Below, in pieces: positions 3,000 through 22,046 of a stretch of 22,278 nucleotides of DNA. The position numbers and the translations under genes are program-made. The notes under the pieces are model-generated. The model made no database searches. It saw only the letters and a program-made list of their open reading frames with translations, and was not told the DNA's origin. The DNA is from a virus. The DNA lies in IMG/VR virus record IMGVR_UViG_3300042470_000198, positions 1 through 22,278 of that record, one strand, 5' to 3'. Within the stretch, counting starts at the first letter, position 1; every line of letters begins with the position of its first letter.

Positions 3000-5547
3000 G
3001 ATTAGCTCCTAAGTTGCGTTGTGCTTCGTTTTGAAGCCGGATAGCAGTCTCAAACTGCTCTGCCTGCAATTGCTCATCCTTCTGGGTGAGTTGTGCAGTT
3101 GCGATGCGCTCCTTGGTGAGGTTGTTTGTGGCGTTCAGTGCCACCTCCAACTGGTCACGCTCGGCTGCGCGTTGTTGATCGCCCTGCAGGCGTGCCATGT
3201 CAATCTGGCCACGCTGCTGCATATCGGCACCTTTAAGTTGCATCTCAGCCTGATCACGCTGTGCGCGCCGCTGAGTCTCAGCCAGGCTGGTTTCCTTGAG
3301 CACTTGTGCCTCAGGCGGTAGTTGCGGCTGGGGCGTAAGTTTCTGCATGGCTTGCATGAGTTGCTGCAGCTTGGGCACCATTTGCTGGAAGGCTGCATTG
3401 GTGTCTTGCATAACATGCTGCGATGCAATAGCAAAGGTCTTGTCGATTTCCGAGGTCAGCATCTTGTTCTCGTAATCGCTTTCTGCCATGGGTTTGCCAC
3501 GAGCCTTGTTCACATAGCCATTCATGCGACCTAAGTACCATAAGACCATGTGCTGCTTGATGTGCTCGAGCACCCGCGGCAGGTAGAACGATGCCATGAT
3601 GGGATTGCCACCAAAGGCAGGGTTAAGCGCGAAGTCCAGGTGCGTTTGGATGTGCGATAACTGGTCCTGATGCGGGTAAGCGTAAGCATTCTGGCCGAGC
3701 GCCATGGCCACATTCTCATCAGACGCTGGGCGCTCCTCGGGAACTGGCGTTCCTTTGAGCAATTCGTTGATGCCAGGGATCTTTAGCTGCTTGAGCAGGC
3801 GCTCTTCAACTGCGCGACGGTCATAAAGGTCAGGTGCCTTATCCGATCGTGCTAAAACCGCCTGAATCTGCGCCATGCGCTGGGTTTCAGAGAAGATATT
3901 GGGATCTGAGACAGGCACCACATCGCCCATGCGCTCAAAATCGCCGGGTTGGACCTCCAAATCGACCACATCCTCACCGCGGCGCATGTCTTCGATGTAC
4001 CAACGGTTAAGGCGCTGCAAAATCTTCAGTACGCGGCCCTGTGACTTGTGCAATCGGGCATGAATGGCCGAAAACACGGCTGCACCCTGCTCAATCAGTG
4101 CCTGTGTCGTGCCTACAGGGGCCTGAGAATTGATGTCAGCGATCTTTTCCTCAGCGGTGGTCACTACACCCTTGGCAGCCTTGTCTAAGAAGCCCAAAAG
4201 CTCGAATAACACGGGGCTTGGGGGGTTAAAAGGCATGGGCATGGCAATCTTGCGGATGTCATCCACACCTGGCGCAGCTTCAATCTCAACAACCTGGGTC
4301 ACATCAGCCTGAACGGACTGGCCTGAGACCTTGGCACCCTTCAGTTTGAGCGTGGCAGGGGCGTTATTGATGTGCGCTGAGTCTAAAAGCGCCCGTAAGG
4401 CTCCTGTAAGTGCTGCTGCCAGGCCGCCAATGAGGTGGGGCATACCAATAGCGTAGGCACCGCGCCATGGGATAAATTTGTACTCGACCACCCAGTCGAG
4501 TTTTTCCATGGTTTCGTCGCCTTCTTCCCAATTGCGGTACAAACCGACCACTTCACGGTCGATTTCATCCACCATTAGGATGTAAGGCGCCATGTCACCC
4601 TTGGAATAGGTGTCATCATCAAGCTCAAGGTAGGTGTAAATGTGAAAAACACGGCGCATCCCGTCGATGTTTTCCTCGGCTTTGCGCCCTTCGATCTTGT
4701 TGTTGGCCTTTTCTGGCCGGGTTGGCTCAGGCTCCAGGCTTACGCGGGTCAAGCTGATGTCGCGATACAGGCCTGCATCAATGCGTTGGTTGAATTCAAA
4801 CTCAGTGATGTCATGAATCTCTGCAGCGCGCTGTGCGGTGTAAAAACTTGTGGCTGCAAACGGGATCAGGACCTTGTCGATGGGCAAAAACTCTGCCACC
4901 GGGCGCATTTTTTTGTCATCCCAGTACAGTTTGAGATACTGAGAGCCGCCAAGGGGCAGTTGCGTGAGCAGTTGCTCTTGCTCATCGCGGAATTCTTCGA
5001 TCTGCTCGATAAGCTGCCAGTTCATCCAATCGCGTTTGCGCTCTGCACGCTTGGTTTTCTCCTCGTCAGTCTCGCCAAGGATCTTGGTTTTGACCGGGCC
5101 ATCAGGTGGGAATAGCTCCTTGATGGTCCTCGAGGCAAAATCCACGCAGGCTTCAGCAATAACGGGGTGGACTACCTTGCTGGCACCGAAGAAAGTAGCG
5201 CCACCAGGGGCGTCTTTGCCCATGCCCGTGCGCTTGATACCCTCTTCGTACTGCTTATCGCGGTCCTCGCGTGCTGTTTTGTCCTTATCCAGCAGGTTTA
5301 AGTAGCGCGATGCCATAGCATCCAGCGTAATGGGATCTATAACTTCTGCTAAGTTCTCGTAAAAGTCGGGATCTTCCAGCGGCCCTTTAGTGCTTGGCAT
5401 GTAAACCACTGCCGAGCCATCGGGAAGCTCTTCAATCTCAGCCTCTTCATCAGGCAACTCGGCTGACATATCAGCGACGGGCACCTCGTCATCGGCCATA
5501 CCGCTGATAAAGCGGCCATAGTCCTGCTCGATGGGCATCTCAGGCAT
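2980..5547 (-). CDS. Portal protein, P22 gp1-like size class (855 aa)
   Basis: At 855 residues this is a large portal of podovirus type. After an acidic N-terminus (residues 1-45) comes a helical body with the segment KVVHPVIAEACVDFASRTIK near residues 125-145 and a central aromatic region. The region beginning DPNIFSETQRMAQIQAVLAR is of the kind seen before the barrel in P22-like portals. The last 130 residues are a Gln/Glu/Arg/Ala-rich coiled coil, matching the long C-terminal barrel helix of P22 gp1. It would form the dodecameric DNA gate at the capsid vertex and contact the terminase. Start 5547 has AAGGA 7 bases upstream and overlaps the previous gene by 8 bases. Identification rests on size, architecture and position. 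Confidence 0.8.
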   Translation of the reverse strand: MPEMPIEQDYGRFISGMADDEVPVADMSAELPDEEAEIEELPDGSAVVYMPSTKGPLEDPDFYENLAEVIDPITLDAMASRYLNLLDKDKTAREDRDKQYEEGIKRTGMGKDAPGGATFFGASKVVHPVIAEACVDFASRTIKELFPPDGPVKTKILGETDEEKTKRAERKRDWMNWQLIEQIEEFRDEQEQLLTQLPLGGSQYLKLYWDDKKMRPVAEFLPIDKVLIPFAATSFYTAQRAAEIHDITEFEFNQRIDAGLYRDISLTRVSLEPEPTRPEKANNKIEGRKAEENIDGMRRVFHIYTYLELDDDTYSKGDMAPYILMVDEIDREVVGLYRNWEEGDETMEKLDWVVEYKFIPWRGAYAIGMPHLIGGLAAALTGALRALLDSAHINNAPATLKLKGAKVSGQSVQADVTQVVEIEAAPGVDDIRKIAMPMPFNPPSPVLFELLGFLDKAAKGVVTTAEEKIADINSQAPVGTTQALIEQGAAVFSAIHARLHKSQGRVLKILQRLNRWYIEDMRRGEDVVDLEVQPGDFERMGDVVPVSDPNIFSETQRMAQIQAVLARSDKAPDLYDRRAVEERLLKQLKIPGINELLKGTPVPEERPASDENVAMALGQNAYAYPHQDQLSHIQTHLDFALNPAFGGNPIMASFYLPRVLEHIKQHMVLWYLGRMNGYVNKARGKPMAESDYENKMLTSEIDKTFAIASQHVMQDTNAAFQQMVPKLQQLMQAMQKLTPQPQLPPEAQVLKETSLAETQRRAQRDQAEMQLKGADMQQRGQIDMARLQGDQQRAAERDQLEVALNATNNLTKERIATAQLTQKDEQLQAEQFETAIRLQNEAQRNLGANRGPTIQ

Positions 5548-8500
5548 GTTTTTTCCTTAGTAATTCAAGGCGCATTGCGTCAAGATTGTTTGAAATACGA
5601 ACCTTGCCACCCTTTTTATATTCATCTTCCTGCATTGCTGCGGCGCCAAGACCTGCTGCTATTGGTATTGCTGACTTAAATGATGTTGATCCTGTGTTGC
5701 CCAAAGAGCCTTTCATTGATAAAGAATCTCTTTGCGGCCCAGTTAAAGCATCTAACAATCTAACTGATGAAGCATTAAAAAAACTTTGAATATTTTGCAT
5801 TTCTTCAGGTGGTATATTGCCTTTGCTTATTAGCACGGCATTGTTTGCATTGGCCCTTTCTAAGCCCTTAAGAATATTAATGGCAGTGCCAGATTTTCTT
5901 AAGTTAGAAAACTGCGCGGCATCAATAGGCATAAAACCAACAGGATAATTTTGGTTGTTTAGCAGCAATACTCCAGTCTGATCGCCAATAAATTTATCTG
6001 CAAACTTTGCAATATCTTTTGGGCCTTGAAACTGAGTTGCATCCATGACCTGCGCTTTTTTCAAGGTGCGCTCAACCATGTCAATTGATTTATTGCGTAT
6101 TGCTGGCGGTATTTTTGTATCTTTTGAAGATGATTTGCTTAATGGATCATAAAACGCAAATTTATCCTTTCCTATAGCTAACATGCCTCGCATTTGAACG
6201 CCAGTGTCCTGAGTCATGTTTAACAAGACATCAGCAAGTCTTTCGTCTGCATTTGATAATTGTGAAACGCCACTTGGATGATTGTGTGAGATGTAAAAAC
6301 CTTTTGCGCCAGGTGTATTGGCAATGGCGCCGACAAGTGAAAACGGTTCAGCGGAGGATTGATTGATCAACCCTACGGTATGCCTGATAACCTGAATTGG
6401 CTTGTTGTTCTCATCAACCACGACAGCTACAAGTTGTTCTTGTGGAGACTTGCGTAAGCCTGCCGTAAGATGGGCTACTTGCTCTGGGGTTTCGGCAACA
6501 TCAAATCCTGTCCTAACTGGCTTGACAGTTGAAAATCCTGTTGTTGTGGCAAATTGTCCAGTTGGCAGTTGTACGGTGGTGATGGGTTGTATGTTGTTAG
6601 GGGTAGGAATTGATGGCACTTGTCCAGGTAAGGAACTTGGTTCTCTGACATTTAATTTTCCTTTTTCTGCCATTTCAGCAGTCATTTCTGCGATGCTTTT
6701 TGGCGCAGCCTTGCTGATCTGCTCAACTGGCTTTGCAGTCAGTTGCGCAGCCTCTATTGCTGGCTCGGCAATTTTTGCCGTTTTTGCAACCCTGCCTATC
6801 GTCGCTGGCAAGCCAAGCATAGGAATCATTGATAGGCCTTGGCCAATCTTCTGAAGGTCGGTTGATCCTGCGCCAGACATATAGCCTTCAGCAAGTTCAC
6901 CTGCGCCTGATGCAATGCGTCCAATAGGGCTTTCCTCAAGCGCTGTAAGCGCTTGCTGTACATCTTCTTTACCTTGGCCATAACCAGGCAATGAACTAAC
7001 GCCACGCGGTGCTGTGCGGCCAAAGAATTGGTCGGTAGAGCCACCAGCTTGCATTCGTGGCGCTCTCATTAGCTCAAGCAACATCGTGTCAGGGTTGTCA
7101 GATATGTGAACTCGCCTTATGGCACCGCCTTGCTTATACGGGGTTACTGGTACTTTTCCAAAGAGCACAGCGCTTGGCTTAGTAGATTGTGGGCTGATAT
7201 ACCCAGCGTAACCATAGTCGCGAATCAGGCGCTCAAGCGCATTGGTTGCTTCGGCAGGTTGCGCCAATCCTTTGTTGCTGCTTGCCGTCATGGGTATGCG
7301 TGTTGTCTCTCTAGCCAACATACTGAGCATGAGCGGATCAGCCGATAAGTCATAAAGGTTTTCGCCCATGGCACGATAACGATGTGGACCCAAGCCAGGC
7401 TCAGGCGTCACGCTTTCGTCGGTGTAAAAATATGTCCTTGGCCTTACTGATCCCTTCTCGCCCAAGCGAGCAGCCTCTTCACCCTTGATACCTGTGCCGT
7501 AAAACGAAGGATCTGTTTCCGTTAGTCCAGCTTGCTTGCTGAAATGCATCATGGGCATACTTACCGAAGTACCCTCTTCAGGCCTGATGAGCGATCGCAA
7601 GTAATCAGGCATCTCACCCTCGTACTTGGTGCTAATGAATTCGGGTGGCAGGAGCACGGGCTTTTGTGGCGCAAACTGGAAGCCATTCCAGGCCTCTTTT
7701 AACTGACCATCAATCTCCTTGACCAGGCCTGTCTTGCCACGGCGATTAGCTTCGTAACGCTGCATGTTCAGTTCGTTGATAGTGCGTTTGAGTGCCGCAT
7801 TCAATGGCGTGTAGTTAACCGTGCTGTTCTGGCCTCGCGTCTCTGCGCTCATTGCAAGTTGCGCTAATGGTGAGTACATCTGACTGTGTGCAGCCCAAGC
7901 TATTTCCTCCCCTTTGGGCCCAAACTCGTTGCCGTGGACGGCATGGCCAAAGAAGTCATGCACAGCGCGGAACTTCTCGTTCTCGTTCAGGCCCGTGATC
8001 GGATCAACATCTTTCAGGTAAGGATGCTCGTCACCACCTTGGAAGACATACAGGTGCTTGTTGCCGTAGACATCCTGCAGCATTTGCTTGCTGTTGCGAT
8101 AGTTGCCCTCGCCTGCGCGATGATACGAAAGGTTGATAGGCAAGCGCTTAAATTGCTCATCGGTCTCTTTGGCTAGCTGCCTGTATGAGGCGGCCAGCAA
8201 TTCATCGTAGTTCTTTGCCCCTGACTGCTGAATGACTTCAGGCATTTGGCTTGCATACTGATCGAAGATCGTCTGCTTGTAAGCAGGGTCCTCGGTGGTC
8301 GCAAGCATGAAGGCGCGACCGATAGGCGCTTGCTTGAGGATTGAACTTTCAGAGATTTCTGGCGGTTGGTAAGGCCTGCCAAAGGCCTCTTGCACATAAG
8401 TATCTGCCGACTGACGAACAAAGTTCGTCGGGTCAGACATTACTTGGCGTACTGTTTCATCCGTAATTGGTTGCGGAACATCGCTTCCAGTTCCTCCTGC

Positions 8501-9199
8501 GGGACGCTGTCTGGCTTCAAGCCCATCGCTTTCGAGCGAGCCTCGACGCTCTCCTGCAGGCGCTTGAGAGACGCTAGGACGGACGCGGTAGAACGGTCCT
8601 TCTGTGGTTGTTTCATATGACACCCCTTGAGCAGGTATTGTCGCAGCCTTTGGTGCTGAGACTTCAGGAATATTTGTTTTGGTTGCGGTTTTCGCTACAT
8701 CTTTAACTGCACCCAAGGCACCAGGCATAGCCGCTGTGGTCCATAGCTGGGGCAAAATAGGTGGCAGCTTGGACTCGCGCAAAAGGCGCTCTAAGCCCTC
8801 GGCAGTGCTCTCGAGGTACTCAGGGCCAAGCTCGGTCTGCATGGGCCTCATATCGCCTGTAATGAACTCCTGAGAGGCTTCTAAGGCGCGTTGCAGTGGG
8901 CTTGTGTCTGAAGGGTCGCCACTCTTCATTGCTTCCTTGATGAAGGCGCCAGCAGTGACGGCAGGTGACACCAAGGTGCGGCCAGCAATTGGTAGGCCTG
9001 TAAGTGCGGCGTCGATGCCACCAGCCAGGCGCGGGGCCACTGTCTCGATGTCTTGCAGGATATTGCCTTGGCCATAGCCTGGTAGCGATGACACACCACG
9101 CTTTGGTGTCTTGCCCATAAAACGATCTAAGGGGCTTCCACCGTCTTGCATGTTGACACCGTACAGAGCCTCGAGCAGTCGTTTGGGATTGGGCATCAT
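5540..9199 (-). CDS. Giant two-module phage protein with JAB/RadC-like metallopeptidase domain (1219 aa)
   Basis: The protein has two modules. Module A (residues about 1-718) holds a Gly/Ala-rich N-terminal region, a conserved-looking block FRAVHDFFGHAVHGNEF with EEIAWAAHSQMYSP (409-444) followed by ETRGQN (453-458), and a region 550-685 rich in Tyr and Phe that I cannot name. Module B (about 719-1219) carries a RadC/JAB-like site: SHNHPSG with His972 and His974, then Asp985, the JAMM zinc-binding pattern. Both modules open with RGVSSLPGYGQG (34-45 and 732-743) and close with a KxGG...ISxNxD-M-LEL tag (689-710 and 1196-1213). The protein resembles the polyvalent proteins described in phages, thought to be packaged or injected. 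Start 9199 has GGAGG upstream. Module B DNA is visibly more AT-rich than module A. Confidence 0.7.
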   Translation of the reverse strand: MMPNPKRLLEALYGVNMQDGGSPLDRFMGKTPKRGVSSLPGYGQGNILQDIETVAPRLAGGIDAALTGLPIAGRTLVSPAVTAGAFIKEAMKSGDPSDTSPLQRALEASQEFITGDMRPMQTELGPEYLESTAEGLERLLRESKLPPILPQLWTTAAMPGALGAVKDVAKTATKTNIPEVSAPKAATIPAQGVSYETTTEGPFYRVRPSVSQAPAGERRGSLESDGLEARQRPAGGTGSDVPQPITDETVRQVMSDPTNFVRQSADTYVQEAFGRPYQPPEISESSILKQAPIGRAFMLATTEDPAYKQTIFDQYASQMPEVIQQSGAKNYDELLAASYRQLAKETDEQFKRLPINLSYHRAGEGNYRNSKQMLQDVYGNKHLYVFQGGDEHPYLKDVDPITGLNENEKFRAVHDFFGHAVHGNEFGPKGEEIAWAAHSQMYSPLAQLAMSAETRGQNSTVNYTPLNAALKRTINELNMQRYEANRRGKTGLVKEIDGQLKEAWNGFQFAPQKPVLLPPEFISTKYEGEMPDYLRSLIRPEEGTSVSMPMMHFSKQAGLTETDPSFYGTGIKGEEAARLGEKGSVRPRTYFYTDESVTPEPGLGPHRYRAMGENLYDLSADPLMLSMLARETTRIPMTASSNKGLAQPAEATNALERLIRDYGYAGYISPQSTKPSAVLFGKVPVTPYKQGGAIRRVHISDNPDTMLLELMRAPRMQAGGSTDQFFGRTAPRGVSSLPGYGQGKEDVQQALTALEESPIGRIASGAGELAEGYMSGAGSTDLQKIGQGLSMIPMLGLPATIGRVAKTAKIAEPAIEAAQLTAKPVEQISKAAPKSIAEMTAEMAEKGKLNVREPSSLPGQVPSIPTPNNIQPITTVQLPTGQFATTTGFSTVKPVRTGFDVAETPEQVAHLTAGLRKSPQEQLVAVVVDENNKPIQVIRHTVGLINQSSAEPFSLVGAIANTPGAKGFYISHNHPSGVSQLSNADERLADVLLNMTQDTGVQMRGMLAIGKDKFAFYDPLSKSSSKDTKIPPAIRNKSIDMVERTLKKAQVMDATQFQGPKDIAKFADKFIGDQTGVLLLNNQNYPVGFMPIDAAQFSNLRKSGTAINILKGLERANANNAVLISKGNIPPEEMQNIQSFFNASSVRLLDALTGPQRDSLSMKGSLGNTGSTSFKSAIPIAAGLGAAAMQEDEYKKGGKVRISNNLDAMRLELLRKKHA

Positions 9200-9201
9200 C
9201 A

Positions 9202-9625
9202 GCCTCCGTTTGCGCGGGATGATAACTCGGCATTCCGTTCAGGCATAGCCTTCCCAGGGGTGGAAGCTAACCACCCTCGCCCACAAGGCGCATTTGATGT
9301 GCCTGCCAGCGTAGCCTTGAGCCAGCGATTCCTTCCATGCACTTGCTGTCTACCACCCTGATCAAGTGCATGTTGCCCGATACCTCGCTGAGAGTTCAGA
9401 TGGCGTGCGACAGGGGTTAGTGCCAGCCAGTGTTTAACTCCGAGCAGCCCATGCAGGCTCATTGCTATCGTGCGGAGTACGGACTGTGCATAAACAAAAA
9501 AAGCCGTTTGGTCTGCGCCCTGGTGGTGTTCCCTTGTAGTGAAAGGTACAAGGGCAGGACGCATACCGAACGACTCTATCTGCACCACACAGACACCATC
9601 ATTGTGGCTAAAGTTGCTCATGGCG
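9202..9625 (-). ncRNA. Candidate large structured RNA between terL and the 1219-aa gene
   Basis: This gap of about 424 bases lies inside a packed operon. In the transcribed (minus) sense it folds into many strong helices: a perfect 10-bp stem 9336-9345 with 9363-9372; an 8-bp stem 9531-9538 with 9547-9554, stacked on 9515-9522 with 9555-9562 (8 bp including one G-U pair that is valid only in the minus-strand RNA); 9431-9442 with 9473-9478 plus 9491-9496; an inner 9443-9449 with 9456-9459 plus 9464-9466; 9284-9289 with 9314-9319; and 9258-9263 with 9271-9276. An alternative is a 140-aa reading frame, ATG 9621 to 9199, whose TGA overlaps the next ATG as TGATG. That frame has no ribosome site and uses many codons rare in its neighbours (ATA, AGA, AGG, CGA, GGA). 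I favour RNA, without certainty. Confidence 0.45.
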
Positions 9626-11056
9626 TCAACTGGCATAGGGATTGGTCCTCGTGATGCCTGCGTCCACATAGTCCTCGGGATCGTAATCATCAGGCGGTAG
9701 CGGGTCGATGTTGAGCCAGCTTGCATCCCTGAGGTATCTGAGCGCCTGGCTGAAACTGTCGCAAAAGTCATCGTGGTCGGTATTCGGAAAGCTGCAGATC
9801 TGCGTGACCATCGCCTCAGCCCAGTCGCGGACATAACCCGGCCTATTGCTGGACTCGGGCACATACACGCGGCCAGCCTTCACGATGTTGGCCACAATCG
9901 ATAAGCGCTGAATCTTGTCAGCCCTGCCGGGGTTGTAAGCCCTCACTGGGATGTGTGCGCGCTGCAGGTCTTGGATCAGCACGATGCCAGCGGCTTTGTC
10001 CTCGACCAGGACCAGGTCCACCTTCTTGGCCGTCTTGCCCTCGCCAAAGATGATCTCGTACTCGTCAATGACCTTGGGCTTAAGATCGGGGTACTGCAGC
10101 CGATCTTGCCAGGCGTCGATGATCAGTACGCACATGCCACCGTCCTGGGGCTTGAAGACACCGAAAGTGATGCTTGCGGTGGGATCGTTGACCGTCTTCT
10201 CGGTGAAGGCGCAGTCATAGCTCTGGACCACAAACTCGAGCTTGGGTATGGGTTTGTCAGCAGGCCAAAGCTTGAACCAGTCGCGCTGCACGATACCGCC
10301 CTCCTCGGGGTCGATGATCTCAGCGTAGATTTCCTGGCGGCCAAGCTTGGTGCCTTCGTACTGCAGGATCTGGCGCTTGAAGTTCTCGGACAGGTTATCC
10401 AGGTTTGAGTAAGTGCTGGCAGTGGTAAGCACCACATCGTCGCCCTCGCGGCTGATCAGGTCGATGATCAGGTCCTTGGGCTTGGGTGTCGTCGTGCAGA
10501 TCAGCCTGGTCTTCATGTCATGCAACTTTAGTCGCATACCAAACTGGATCTGGTCCCAGGCTTCCTGAATGTACTCCCAGGCGGCAAGTTCATCCAACCA
10601 CCCGCCGTGGAATTGCGGACCGCGGAAGCGCTCAGGCTCCGAAGCGGGTATGCCTTTGATCAGCGAGCCGTTGGTCAAGCGTAGCTCGTGCAAGGCCTTG
10701 TTGTAATCAGCGATCAGGACCGCAGGAATCACGCTCAGGAGGCCCGAATCACCCTCGAAGCATGTACCCCTCACATCACTACTCGTTGGCGCCGCCACGA
10801 GCCATCTGGTGGCTTTGTAGGACTGTGCCCACCAGCCGATCTGCTCCGCAGCCGTCCTGGTCTTGCCGGCACCGCGGCCTGCAAGCATCAGCCATATGGA
10901 CCACCAGTCACCGTGCGGTAGGATCTGGTGCTTGAGTGCTCGTGTGAGCCACATCATGCGCCAGGACCAGGCGGCAGCCGCTTGTGGCTCTAGCCTGGTG
11001 TACTGCTCGCGGATCTGTGGATCTTTGAGCAGGACCTCAAGATCACTTGTCCCCAA
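9626..11056 (-). CDS. terL: Terminase large subunit (476 aa)
   Basis: This is the packaging motor ATPase and nuclease, which cuts concatemeric DNA and pumps it through the portal. Visible motifs are Walker A GRGAGKT (60-66), Walker B WLDELAAW (153-160, with the catalytic Glu after Asp), the coupling motif CTTTPKP (187-193), and a C-terminal RNase H-like nuclease with Asp281 in QSYDCAF, an acidic pair near Glu352/Asp353 and Asp433 in HDDFCDSF. The length of 476 is normal for the family. The start overlaps the small-subunit gene by 14 bases. The C-terminal DPLPPDDYDPEDY tail is acidic, possibly a portal contact. The frame is complete, ending in TGA at 9626. Confidence 0.95.
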   Translation of the reverse strand: MGTSDLEVLLKDPQIREQYTRLEPQAAAAWSWRMMWLTRALKHQILPHGDWWSIWLMLAGRGAGKTRTAAEQIGWWAQSYKATRWLVAAPTSSDVRGTCFEGDSGLLSVIPAVLIADYNKALHELRLTNGSLIKGIPASEPERFRGPQFHGGWLDELAAWEYIQEAWDQIQFGMRLKLHDMKTRLICTTTPKPKDLIIDLISREGDDVVLTTASTYSNLDNLSENFKRQILQYEGTKLGRQEIYAEIIDPEEGGIVQRDWFKLWPADKPIPKLEFVVQSYDCAFTEKTVNDPTASITFGVFKPQDGGMCVLIIDAWQDRLQYPDLKPKVIDEYEIIFGEGKTAKKVDLVLVEDKAAGIVLIQDLQRAHIPVRAYNPGRADKIQRLSIVANIVKAGRVYVPESSNRPGYVRDWAEAMVTQICSFPNTDHDDFCDSFSQALRYLRDASWLNIDPLPPDDYDPEDYVDAGITRTNPYAS

Positions 11057-11705: not shown

Positions 11706-11731
11706 AAAAAAAGAACCCCCATTGCGGGGGT
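11706..11731 (-). terminator. Rho-independent terminator of the minus-strand replication operon
   Basis: In the minus strand a 6-bp GC-rich stem (ACCCCC pairing with GGGGGT, positions 11726-11731 and 11715-11720, 5-base loop) is followed by TTCTTTTTTT (11715-11706). This is a classic intrinsic terminator. It lies 53 bases after the last small gene of the operon (stop at 11784). It is a minus-strand terminator because only that strand has the T tract. Confidence 0.8.
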
Positions 11732-21483: not shown

Positions 21484-21693
21484 ATGATCAAACTGATTGA
21501 ATCTGACAAATACGATCTGCGTATGCAGGTCTGCAATGTGGTCGAGACGGCCAACAACTTGAACCGCACATTGGCAAGTGAGTATCAAGATCTTGATGGC
21601 TATCAACTCAACGCCTTCGCTCGCTTGCAAAAAGAAATGGAAGAGCTTGAGTCGATGTTCAAGCACATCAGAAACAGGAGGAGAGCAGCATGA
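21484..21693 (+). CDS. Small helical protein of unknown function (69 aa)
   Basis: The 69 residues are charged and helical (MIKLIESDKYDLRMQVCNVV, then LNAFARLQKEMEELESMFKHI) with a basic Arg tail, suggesting a coiled-coil or DNA-contacting small protein. Start 21484 has GGAGG 5 bases upstream. A TTG start further upstream would include the ribosome site. It overlaps the next gene by 4 bases. Confidence 0.65.
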   Translation: MIKLIESDKYDLRMQVCNVVETANNLNRTLASEYQDLDGYQLNAFARLQKEMEELESMFKHIRNRRRAA

Positions 21694-22046
21694 GCATGCC
21701 AGAAATCGTGAAGCGCACAGTTGCGCAGGCCATCAAATTGCTTGACGCATCAGGTGTTAAGTACAAGATTATTGACCAGGACGGCAATGAGTTTGGTGAT
21801 CTTATTGTTTCCACGCCTAAAAAAACTAGCAAGACTTATAAGCATCCGCCGGGGACAATGTACAGGTTTTATCACCCGTTGATCAAAGACATGAAAGTTG
21901 GCGATGTTGTTGCTATCAAAAACTTTGACTTCGAGCCAAAAGCATTGCAAGGCGCAATCACTGGATGGGCTACAGAGCATTGGGGCAAAGGGTCTTACAA
22001 GACTTGTGTTGTTGGTTCCGATGTTGAAATTCTTCGTTGTTCATAA
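21690..22046 (+). CDS. Protein of unknown function (118 aa)
   Basis: The start at 21690 shares ATGA with the previous stop and has GGAGGAGAG about 8 bases upstream. The product has a helical front (IVKRTVAQAIKLLDASGVKY), a beta-rich middle (YKIIDQDGNEFGDLIV, MYRFYHPLIKDMKVGDVVAI) and a C-terminal strand set. It looks like a small beta-barrel or SH3-like protein. I do not recognise a family. Its DNA is a little more AT-rich than the exonuclease gene. Confidence 0.65.
   Translation: MSMPEIVKRTVAQAIKLLDASGVKYKIIDQDGNEFGDLIVSTPKKTSKTYKHPPGTMYRFYHPLIKDMKVGDVVAIKNFDFEPKALQGAITGWATEHWGKGSYKTCVVGSDVEILRCS

Follow-up and report, generated by a model that had tools for sequence, protein, structure and literature searches.

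A two-part, pseudoknotted RNA locus of uncultured phages and its possible role in replication initiation

GOLLD and ROOL exemplify large structured RNAs that are not known to encode a protein and are frequent in phage and metagenomic DNA; the phi29 pRNA, a phage RNA of about 100 nt, carries two complementary loops. Oligomeric structures have been reported for GOLLD and ROOL (PMC12286853). Here, we describe an RNA locus found in a 22,278-nucleotide stretch of viral DNA (IMG/VR record IMGVR_UViG_3300042470_000198, positions 1 to 22,278; hereafter the window). The locus spans about 400 bases and consists of a knotted short RNA, bounded by a promoter and a terminator, followed by a second knotted domain, termed module 2. 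Comparison with relatives makes it near certain that this two-part, strand-specific RNA locus is real and that its structure is under strong selection, and establishes the locus as phage-borne, mobile and single-copy. The same comparison led us to propose, with a probability of roughly 40%, that the locus controls or primes replication initiation, as an RNA-based origin or an origin regulator.

In the window, terL (9626-11056, minus strand) and the next late gene (5540-9199, minus strand) flank a gap of 424 bases. A first-pass annotation, made from the letters of the window alone, had proposed that this gap encodes a large structured RNA of an unrecognised family, read in the late sense. The stems on which it relied are present in the sequence: a perfect stem between CATGCACTTG (9336-9345) and CAAGTGCATG (9363-9372), a second between CCCTTGTA (9531-9538) and TACAAGGG (9547-9554), and a third between GCGCCCTG (9515-9522) and CAGGACGC (9555-9562), in which the odd pair is C.A on the plus strand and G.U on the minus strand. 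The RNA in the gap was borne out, although its extent had been underestimated, the element occupying 9242-9629 on the minus strand. Folding energy by itself was weak evidence for an RNA: z was -1.88 for the plus strand and -1.80 for the minus strand, and 5 of 100 shuffled sequences folded equally well. Rfam 15 gave no match for the window at the gathering score, in line with an unrecognised family, and none for 9100-9700 up to E = 5. Because the folding energy was modest and Rfam was without a match, relatives were needed to settle the question.

At least 598 IMG/VR stretches encode a TerL relative, and the best 80 were taken for comparison. Pattern scans of IMG/VR recovered 59 stretches with the motif of type A, the type present in the window, and 58 with the motif of type B, a different element of about 415 nt. 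Overall, the RNA family has members on considerably more than 100 phage contigs from metagenomes. A scan of 84,980 bacterial and archaeal genomes returned one motif match, located in a metagenome-assembled genome without the surrounding family features, which looks like chance. Among deposited and cultured phages, DNA similarity revealed no homologue, only 32-nt matches, two of them annotated as terminators; no element was found by covariance model in MW202545.1.

The first part of the locus in the window comprises the following features.
9601-9629, minus strand: sigma70-type promoter TTGACG-N17-CACAAT, with 9 of 12 consensus bases; the -35 box overlaps the terL stop codon
9496-9596, minus strand: short RNA of about 100 nt, from the predicted start to the terminator U-tract, with homologues
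9579-9593, minus strand: 5' hairpin UCUG-UGUGGUG-CAGA, the loop of which is one pseudoknot strand
9519-9528, minus strand: bulge CACCACC in the 3' arm of the terminator hairpin, partner of the 5' loop in the pseudoknot
9503-9574, minus strand: long intrinsic-terminator hairpin, with an inner hairpin at 9531-9554
9495-9502, minus strand: terminator U-tract TTTTTTTG (T7 at 9502-9496)

The stems at 9503-9574 had thus been seen correctly in the first-pass annotation, which did not recognise them as an intrinsic terminator that ends a short transcript in its own right; likewise, its helices stood, while the two pseudoknots of the locus had escaped it. Promoter boxes occur in the same place in homologues (TTGACA-N17-CACAAT in L019 and L081, TTGCAA-N17-TATCAT in L042, TTGCAT-N17-TACACT in L117). 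The 65 distinct homologous short RNAs measure 90-195 nt, with a median of 115 nt. Under a strict rule, a hairpin closed by a T-run was located about 100 nt after the promoter in 68 of 89 copies, and many copies failing the rule carry an interrupted run, TTTTGCTTTT. A predicted promoter, a hairpin and a U-tract, as expected of an intrinsically terminated phage small RNA, are therefore conserved among homologues. When 12 short RNAs were aligned, 96.9% of cells were paired and 13 of 19 pairs had changed on both sides. The loop-bulge pseudoknot, GUGG(A) with (U)CCAC, was paired in 100% of these 12 sequences and showed three double-sided changes. Among the 65 distinct RNAs, loops fitted their cognate bulges over a mean of 6.29 nt, versus 4.51 nt for non-cognate combinations (permutation p = 0.0002), with pairs as different as GUGGUG/CACCAC in the window, GUGAGAG/CUCUCAC in L033, GUCGAAG/CUUCGAC in L112 and GUGACGGCA/UGCCGUCAC in L115. 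In one further locus, L150, two tandem terminator-type short RNAs precede a single module 2.

The second part of the locus contains these features.
9242-9489, minus strand: module 2, the second structured RNA domain, with an approximate 3' limit
9436-9478, minus strand: H1, stem ACUCCG/CGGAGU around a conserved ACGAUAGCA loop and H2; 4 of 5 H1 pairs show double-sided changes
9446-9460, minus strand: H2, hairpin GAGCCUGCAUGGGCU within H1
9376-9400, minus strand: H3, hairpin UCUGAACUCUCAGCGAGGUAUCGGG, with its loop (CAGCGA) engaged in the second pseudoknot; 100% paired, 6 of 7 pairs covary
9336-9372, minus strand: H4, the perfect 10-bp stem; 8 of 8 pairs show double-sided changes in 41 sequences
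9322-9330, minus strand: AAUCGCUGG, partner strand of the second pseudoknot; 100% paired with the H3 loop, 5 of 6 pairs covary

A conserved 3' motif, GGG(G)AANCUAUG, finishes near 9242. The second pseudoknot joins the H3 loop CAGCGA to the downstream UCGCUG, with the variants AGAGA/UCUCU, UGCGA/UCGCA and UAGCGA/UCGCUA in relatives. Across the core of module 2, 96.2% of cells were paired and 24 of 31 pairs had changed on both sides; the covariation score was 0.608, compared with 0.165 for shuffled alignments and at most 0.110 with partners slid, and none of 500 shuffles attained any of five measures. The covariation analysis of homologues that the first-pass annotation had called for thus favours a structured RNA in both parts of the locus. 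Covariance model R1 matched the window once, at 9489-9321, with 160.5 bits; since the window sequence was used to build R1, this score is not an independent test. Read on the minus strand, 28 pairs of module 2 held 35 G.U cells versus 2 A.C cells, which, together with the covariation, upholds the late sense. A reading on the plus strand was favoured initially, since type B in the terL sense matches the plus strand of the window, and was dropped because promoters, U-tracts and G.U counts all place the RNA on the minus strand.

Most copies of the element are located far from the terminase genes, and their neighbours include replication families. In family F2, which is O/DnaT-like, the match is confined to the C-terminal part of replication initiation proteins (phrog_270, residues 161-257 of 383), and in family F10 likewise to that of O-like proteins; F9 is a P-like helicase loader, F26 a primase/helicase and F7 a thymidylate synthase, and RusA is also found. 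In a reverse approach, 80 loci were gathered starting from F2 rather than from the RNA. The element was located upstream of F2 on the same strand in 71 of the 77 loci with enough upstream sequence, between F1 and F2 where F1 exists, and a single one of the close relatives among these loci lacked it there. In the 41 F2 loci tested with the covariance model, all 35 matches were on the strand of the replication gene. No more than one copy per record was found in 38 records. The complete circular metagenomic genome MW202674.1 (36,633 bp) carries a single copy, found by model at 5120-5283, with a promoter, an 8-bp loop pairing (UUGGCGGA/UCCGCCAA), a terminator and module 2, in a region annotated as tiny hypothetical proteins on the opposite strand. 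This element coincides with the global minimum of the cumulative GC skew, and none of the 733 positions tested has a stronger skew change; a minus-to-plus change at the element was also observed in G008, G011, G015, G017, G018, G022 and G028.

The position behind terL has a different character. Type A was found there in L001, L002, L018-L020, L033, L039, L051, L057, L059 and L060, and type B in L023, L025, L027, L028, L042, L064 and L078; further relatives hold other insertions, and in others the slot is empty, so that it is a permissive insertion site at which the element is optional. Type B, read in the terL sense, shares motifs with the opposite strand of type A, and L097 is chimaeric, a type A domain running into a B-type part, which indicates that the same RNA sits at this slot in either orientation. 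Copies of type A about 81% identical to that of the window were found in the early region (L082:2469-2823 and L090:597-951) of phages that share window genes (21690-22046) and thus belong to the same clade with the element elsewhere. Modules are also exchanged: L165 and L187, with a type B module, have a short RNA nearly like that of the window, and L097, with a type A module, has a B-like short RNA. In six copies (L114, L127, L129, L156, L185 and L195), an open reading frame (ORF) of about 90 aa (...YYAVEIKHRVGIERGK...) lies directly before module 2, at an insertion point identical in types A and B; the L129 copy of its product had no Pfam match. In L136, the same place is taken by an HNH endonuclease gene (PF13392). 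In the five cargo-bearing copies examined further upstream (L114, L127, L129, L136 and L185), the promoter, short RNA and terminator persist beyond the inserted gene; the two parts need not be contiguous, because inserted genes can separate them.

Comparison with relatives thus shows a sigma70-type promoter for an RNA of about 100 nt that runs to a terminator of its own and is held together by the loop-to-bulge pseudoknot; directly downstream, on the same strand, lies an RNA domain of about 250 nt with its own pseudoknot. We propose that the start of replication would be regulated or primed by the short RNA, or by read-through into module 2, at the home site, where each genome has one locus immediately before its O/DnaT-like initiation and helicase-loader genes. 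The fixed place and direction, the single copy, the truncated initiators, the skew minimum and the freedom of place and orientation suggest such a role; an origin that is recognised by way of RNA would be in keeping with F2 and F10 initiators that lack a DNA-binding part. In the window phage, recombination may have moved the locus into the permissive slot behind terL, where it would act as an independent unit and late transcripts would have to pass its terminator.

Several observations weigh against this proposal. The locus is optional at the terL slot and can lie there in either orientation, and in many relatives, with TerL 96-99% identical, that place holds no more than a 39-nt gap with the ribosome-binding region of the next gene. 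Module 2 lies beyond the terminator of the short RNA on the same strand, and pairing between the two parts showed no excess in cognate over non-cognate combinations (7.48 versus 7.19). There was hardly any skew change at the element in G016 and none in G021, nor in the terL-slot copies G001, G004 and G005; moreover, gene strands diverge at the home site, so that skew is confounded and no proof of an origin. In L011, a relative of 55.8 kb, no element was detectable with model R1, and that lineage must therefore initiate replication otherwise. L011 and L037, which has no element, carry GGGGCGWACA and GTAACCCAGGGTT repeats, and the window has none. The iteron-like repeats (GGGGCGWACA, GTAACCCAGGGTTGC) were located at L213:10675-10820 (L011) and G006:53226-53361 (L037), and are absent from the corresponding divergent region of the window at 18.6-18.9 kb. 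The idea that the element and an iteron-type origin are mutually exclusive in the terL clade was rejected, as L055 has both and several relatives have neither.

Other explanations account for part of these data. The locus could be a cassette for a trans-acting regulatory or anti-host RNA, in which the short RNA acts on RNA or protein of the host or of a competing phage, as decoy, antisense or defence inhibitor, with module 2 as a linked RNA of similar role and the variable, self-complementary loops as specificity elements. This is possible, though we would not call it probable: nearly all members have a promoter and terminator of their own, terL-clade copies are movable, orientation-free and optional, modules shuffle (L165, L097), and loops evolve fast yet remain self-complementary, whereas the near-universal, fixed position before the replication genes of the F2 clade is unusual for an accessory weapon, and no genome has more than one copy. 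Much the same mobility, with differing places in related genomes (the terL slot, and the early region in L082 and L090) and both orientations, together with cargo between the parts (the HNH gene in one copy, the ORF of about 90 aa in six), could mark a selfish mobile RNA element that resides between genes and is spread by homing-type recombination. We consider this unlikely, given that neither a target-site duplication nor a sharp insertion boundary was seen at the terL slot, that most copies are without cargo and none exceeds one per genome, and that the element is near fixation in the F2 clade with strong purifying selection on its structure. A cis-acting leader, consisting of a promoter, a pseudoknot-controlled attenuator and a structured 5' untranslated region, with the following co-directional gene as its target, is less likely still. 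In its favour, the order is promoter, terminator, structured domain and gene, always co-directional with the F2 gene, and the window copy is in the late-operon sense; however, type B at the terL slot opposes both neighbours, downstream genes differ in kind, a cargo gene can separate the two parts, and some B-type copies lie more than 700 nt from F2 (F1-F2 gap 1233-1598 nt).

Adjacency to terL had led the first-pass annotation to invite comparison with packaging RNAs. A packaging RNA, or another terminase-linked RNA of late function, is very improbable: the slot is empty beside near-identical TerL, type B lies there in the opposite orientation, most copies are near replication genes, and the phage encodes an ordinary TerS and TerL. 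Least credible of all is a protein gene with helices by chance, a reading that the relatives refute. The window, L001, L002 and L019 keep its 140-aa frame (9199-9621) open, whereas indels of 1-2 nt shift or stop it in L018, L033, L039 and L051, its product matches no family, and base changes in the stems are compensatory. The annotation had named conservation of this frame, with stems lacking compensation, as the outcome that would count against an RNA; the opposite was found.

Some further elements were encountered in the window and its relatives. The late gene at 5540-9199 encodes a 1219-aa virion-operon protein, highly mosaic across relatives, with a RadC-like JAB domain (PF04002) at residues 904-1014, and a strong terminator (ACCCCCGCAATGGGGGT TCTTTTTTTG, 11715-11731 followed by a T-run, minus strand) lies just upstream of terS. 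In L070-L074, the match to terL breaks off at residue 446 of 476 and there is an intein-like insertion near the C-terminus, with a VHNC end before the host CDAF... and an HNH-type ORF nested in another frame. The terL-clade relative L030 carries an int-alpA RNA at 1131-1202 (RF02996, 40.6 bits). L214, from the record of L011 (contig 54874-55089), a relative without the element, contains a hammerhead-ribozyme-like sequence (CCACGG-CUGAUGAG-...-CGAAA-...-GUC-CCGUGG) that scores below the Rfam gathering score.

The family combines heavy covariation and two pseudoknots with a promoter and terminator of its own, and across a large group of uncultured phages it is close to fixation before the replication genes. 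Tentatively, it may stand for a new class in double-stranded DNA phages, in which an RNA-based replication origin, or a regulator of the origin, replaces protein-iteron recognition and can be moved whole. With the same reserve, initiators in such a class might keep only the part that contacts the primosome, and the locus might relocate, for example behind terL. If this is true, tailed phages would have an RNA-based route to begin DNA synthesis, which would account for initiators lacking a DNA-binding part. An element of about 400 bp is easily testable, as natural presence/absence pairs and swappable modules exist.

Searches of open-access papers on structured RNAs of phages, on origins primed by RNA and on RNAs in phage replication yielded no description of the family. 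Rfam gave no match on the element in nine homologous loci, and for type B it gave nothing above chance level; a cobalamin-like or FMN-like riboswitch in type B, considered for its CCGGTGCAAATCCG motif, was rejected on such scores, and tRNA and tmRNA were rejected as ARAGORN found none. GOLLD and ROOL are nearest in kind, but the element is smaller, is two-part with an internal promoter-terminator unit, and is set by replication genes; their Rfam models, and those of group I and group II introns, did not match it. The phi29 pRNA resembles the short RNA in its length of about 100 nt and its complementary loop pairing, and differs in its packaging setting: here, empty slots and the replication setting elsewhere show no constant association with a packaging motor. 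In the order of its strands (loop strand, outer stem, inner hairpin, loop partner, outer stem), the short RNA recalls HDV-like nested-pseudoknot ribozymes, from which it departs in having its 5' strand inside a closed hairpin loop, no P4, a terminator end and no Rfam match. The type III toxin-antitoxin RNA ToxI shares the order of promoter, pseudoknotted RNA, terminator and second unit, whereas the element is without visible tandem repeats and no ToxN-type gene is among the annotated neighbour families. Lambda oop and the phage antisense immunity RNAs (c4, CI RNA) are likewise short terminated RNAs near a replication or control region; unlike them, the element is not antisense to its neighbour in the home setting and is joined to a large second domain. 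In comparison with the ColE1-type RNA I/RNA II system, the short RNA shares its strand with the larger one rather than being antisense to it, promoter, terminator and module 2 all lying on one strand, a terminator lies between the two, and priming is only proposed, the GC-skew minimum of MW202674.1 being consistent with it yet confounded. What the locus does share with that system is a short RNA and a larger structured RNA near a start of replication, primosome-type partner proteins next door, and freedom of place and orientation.
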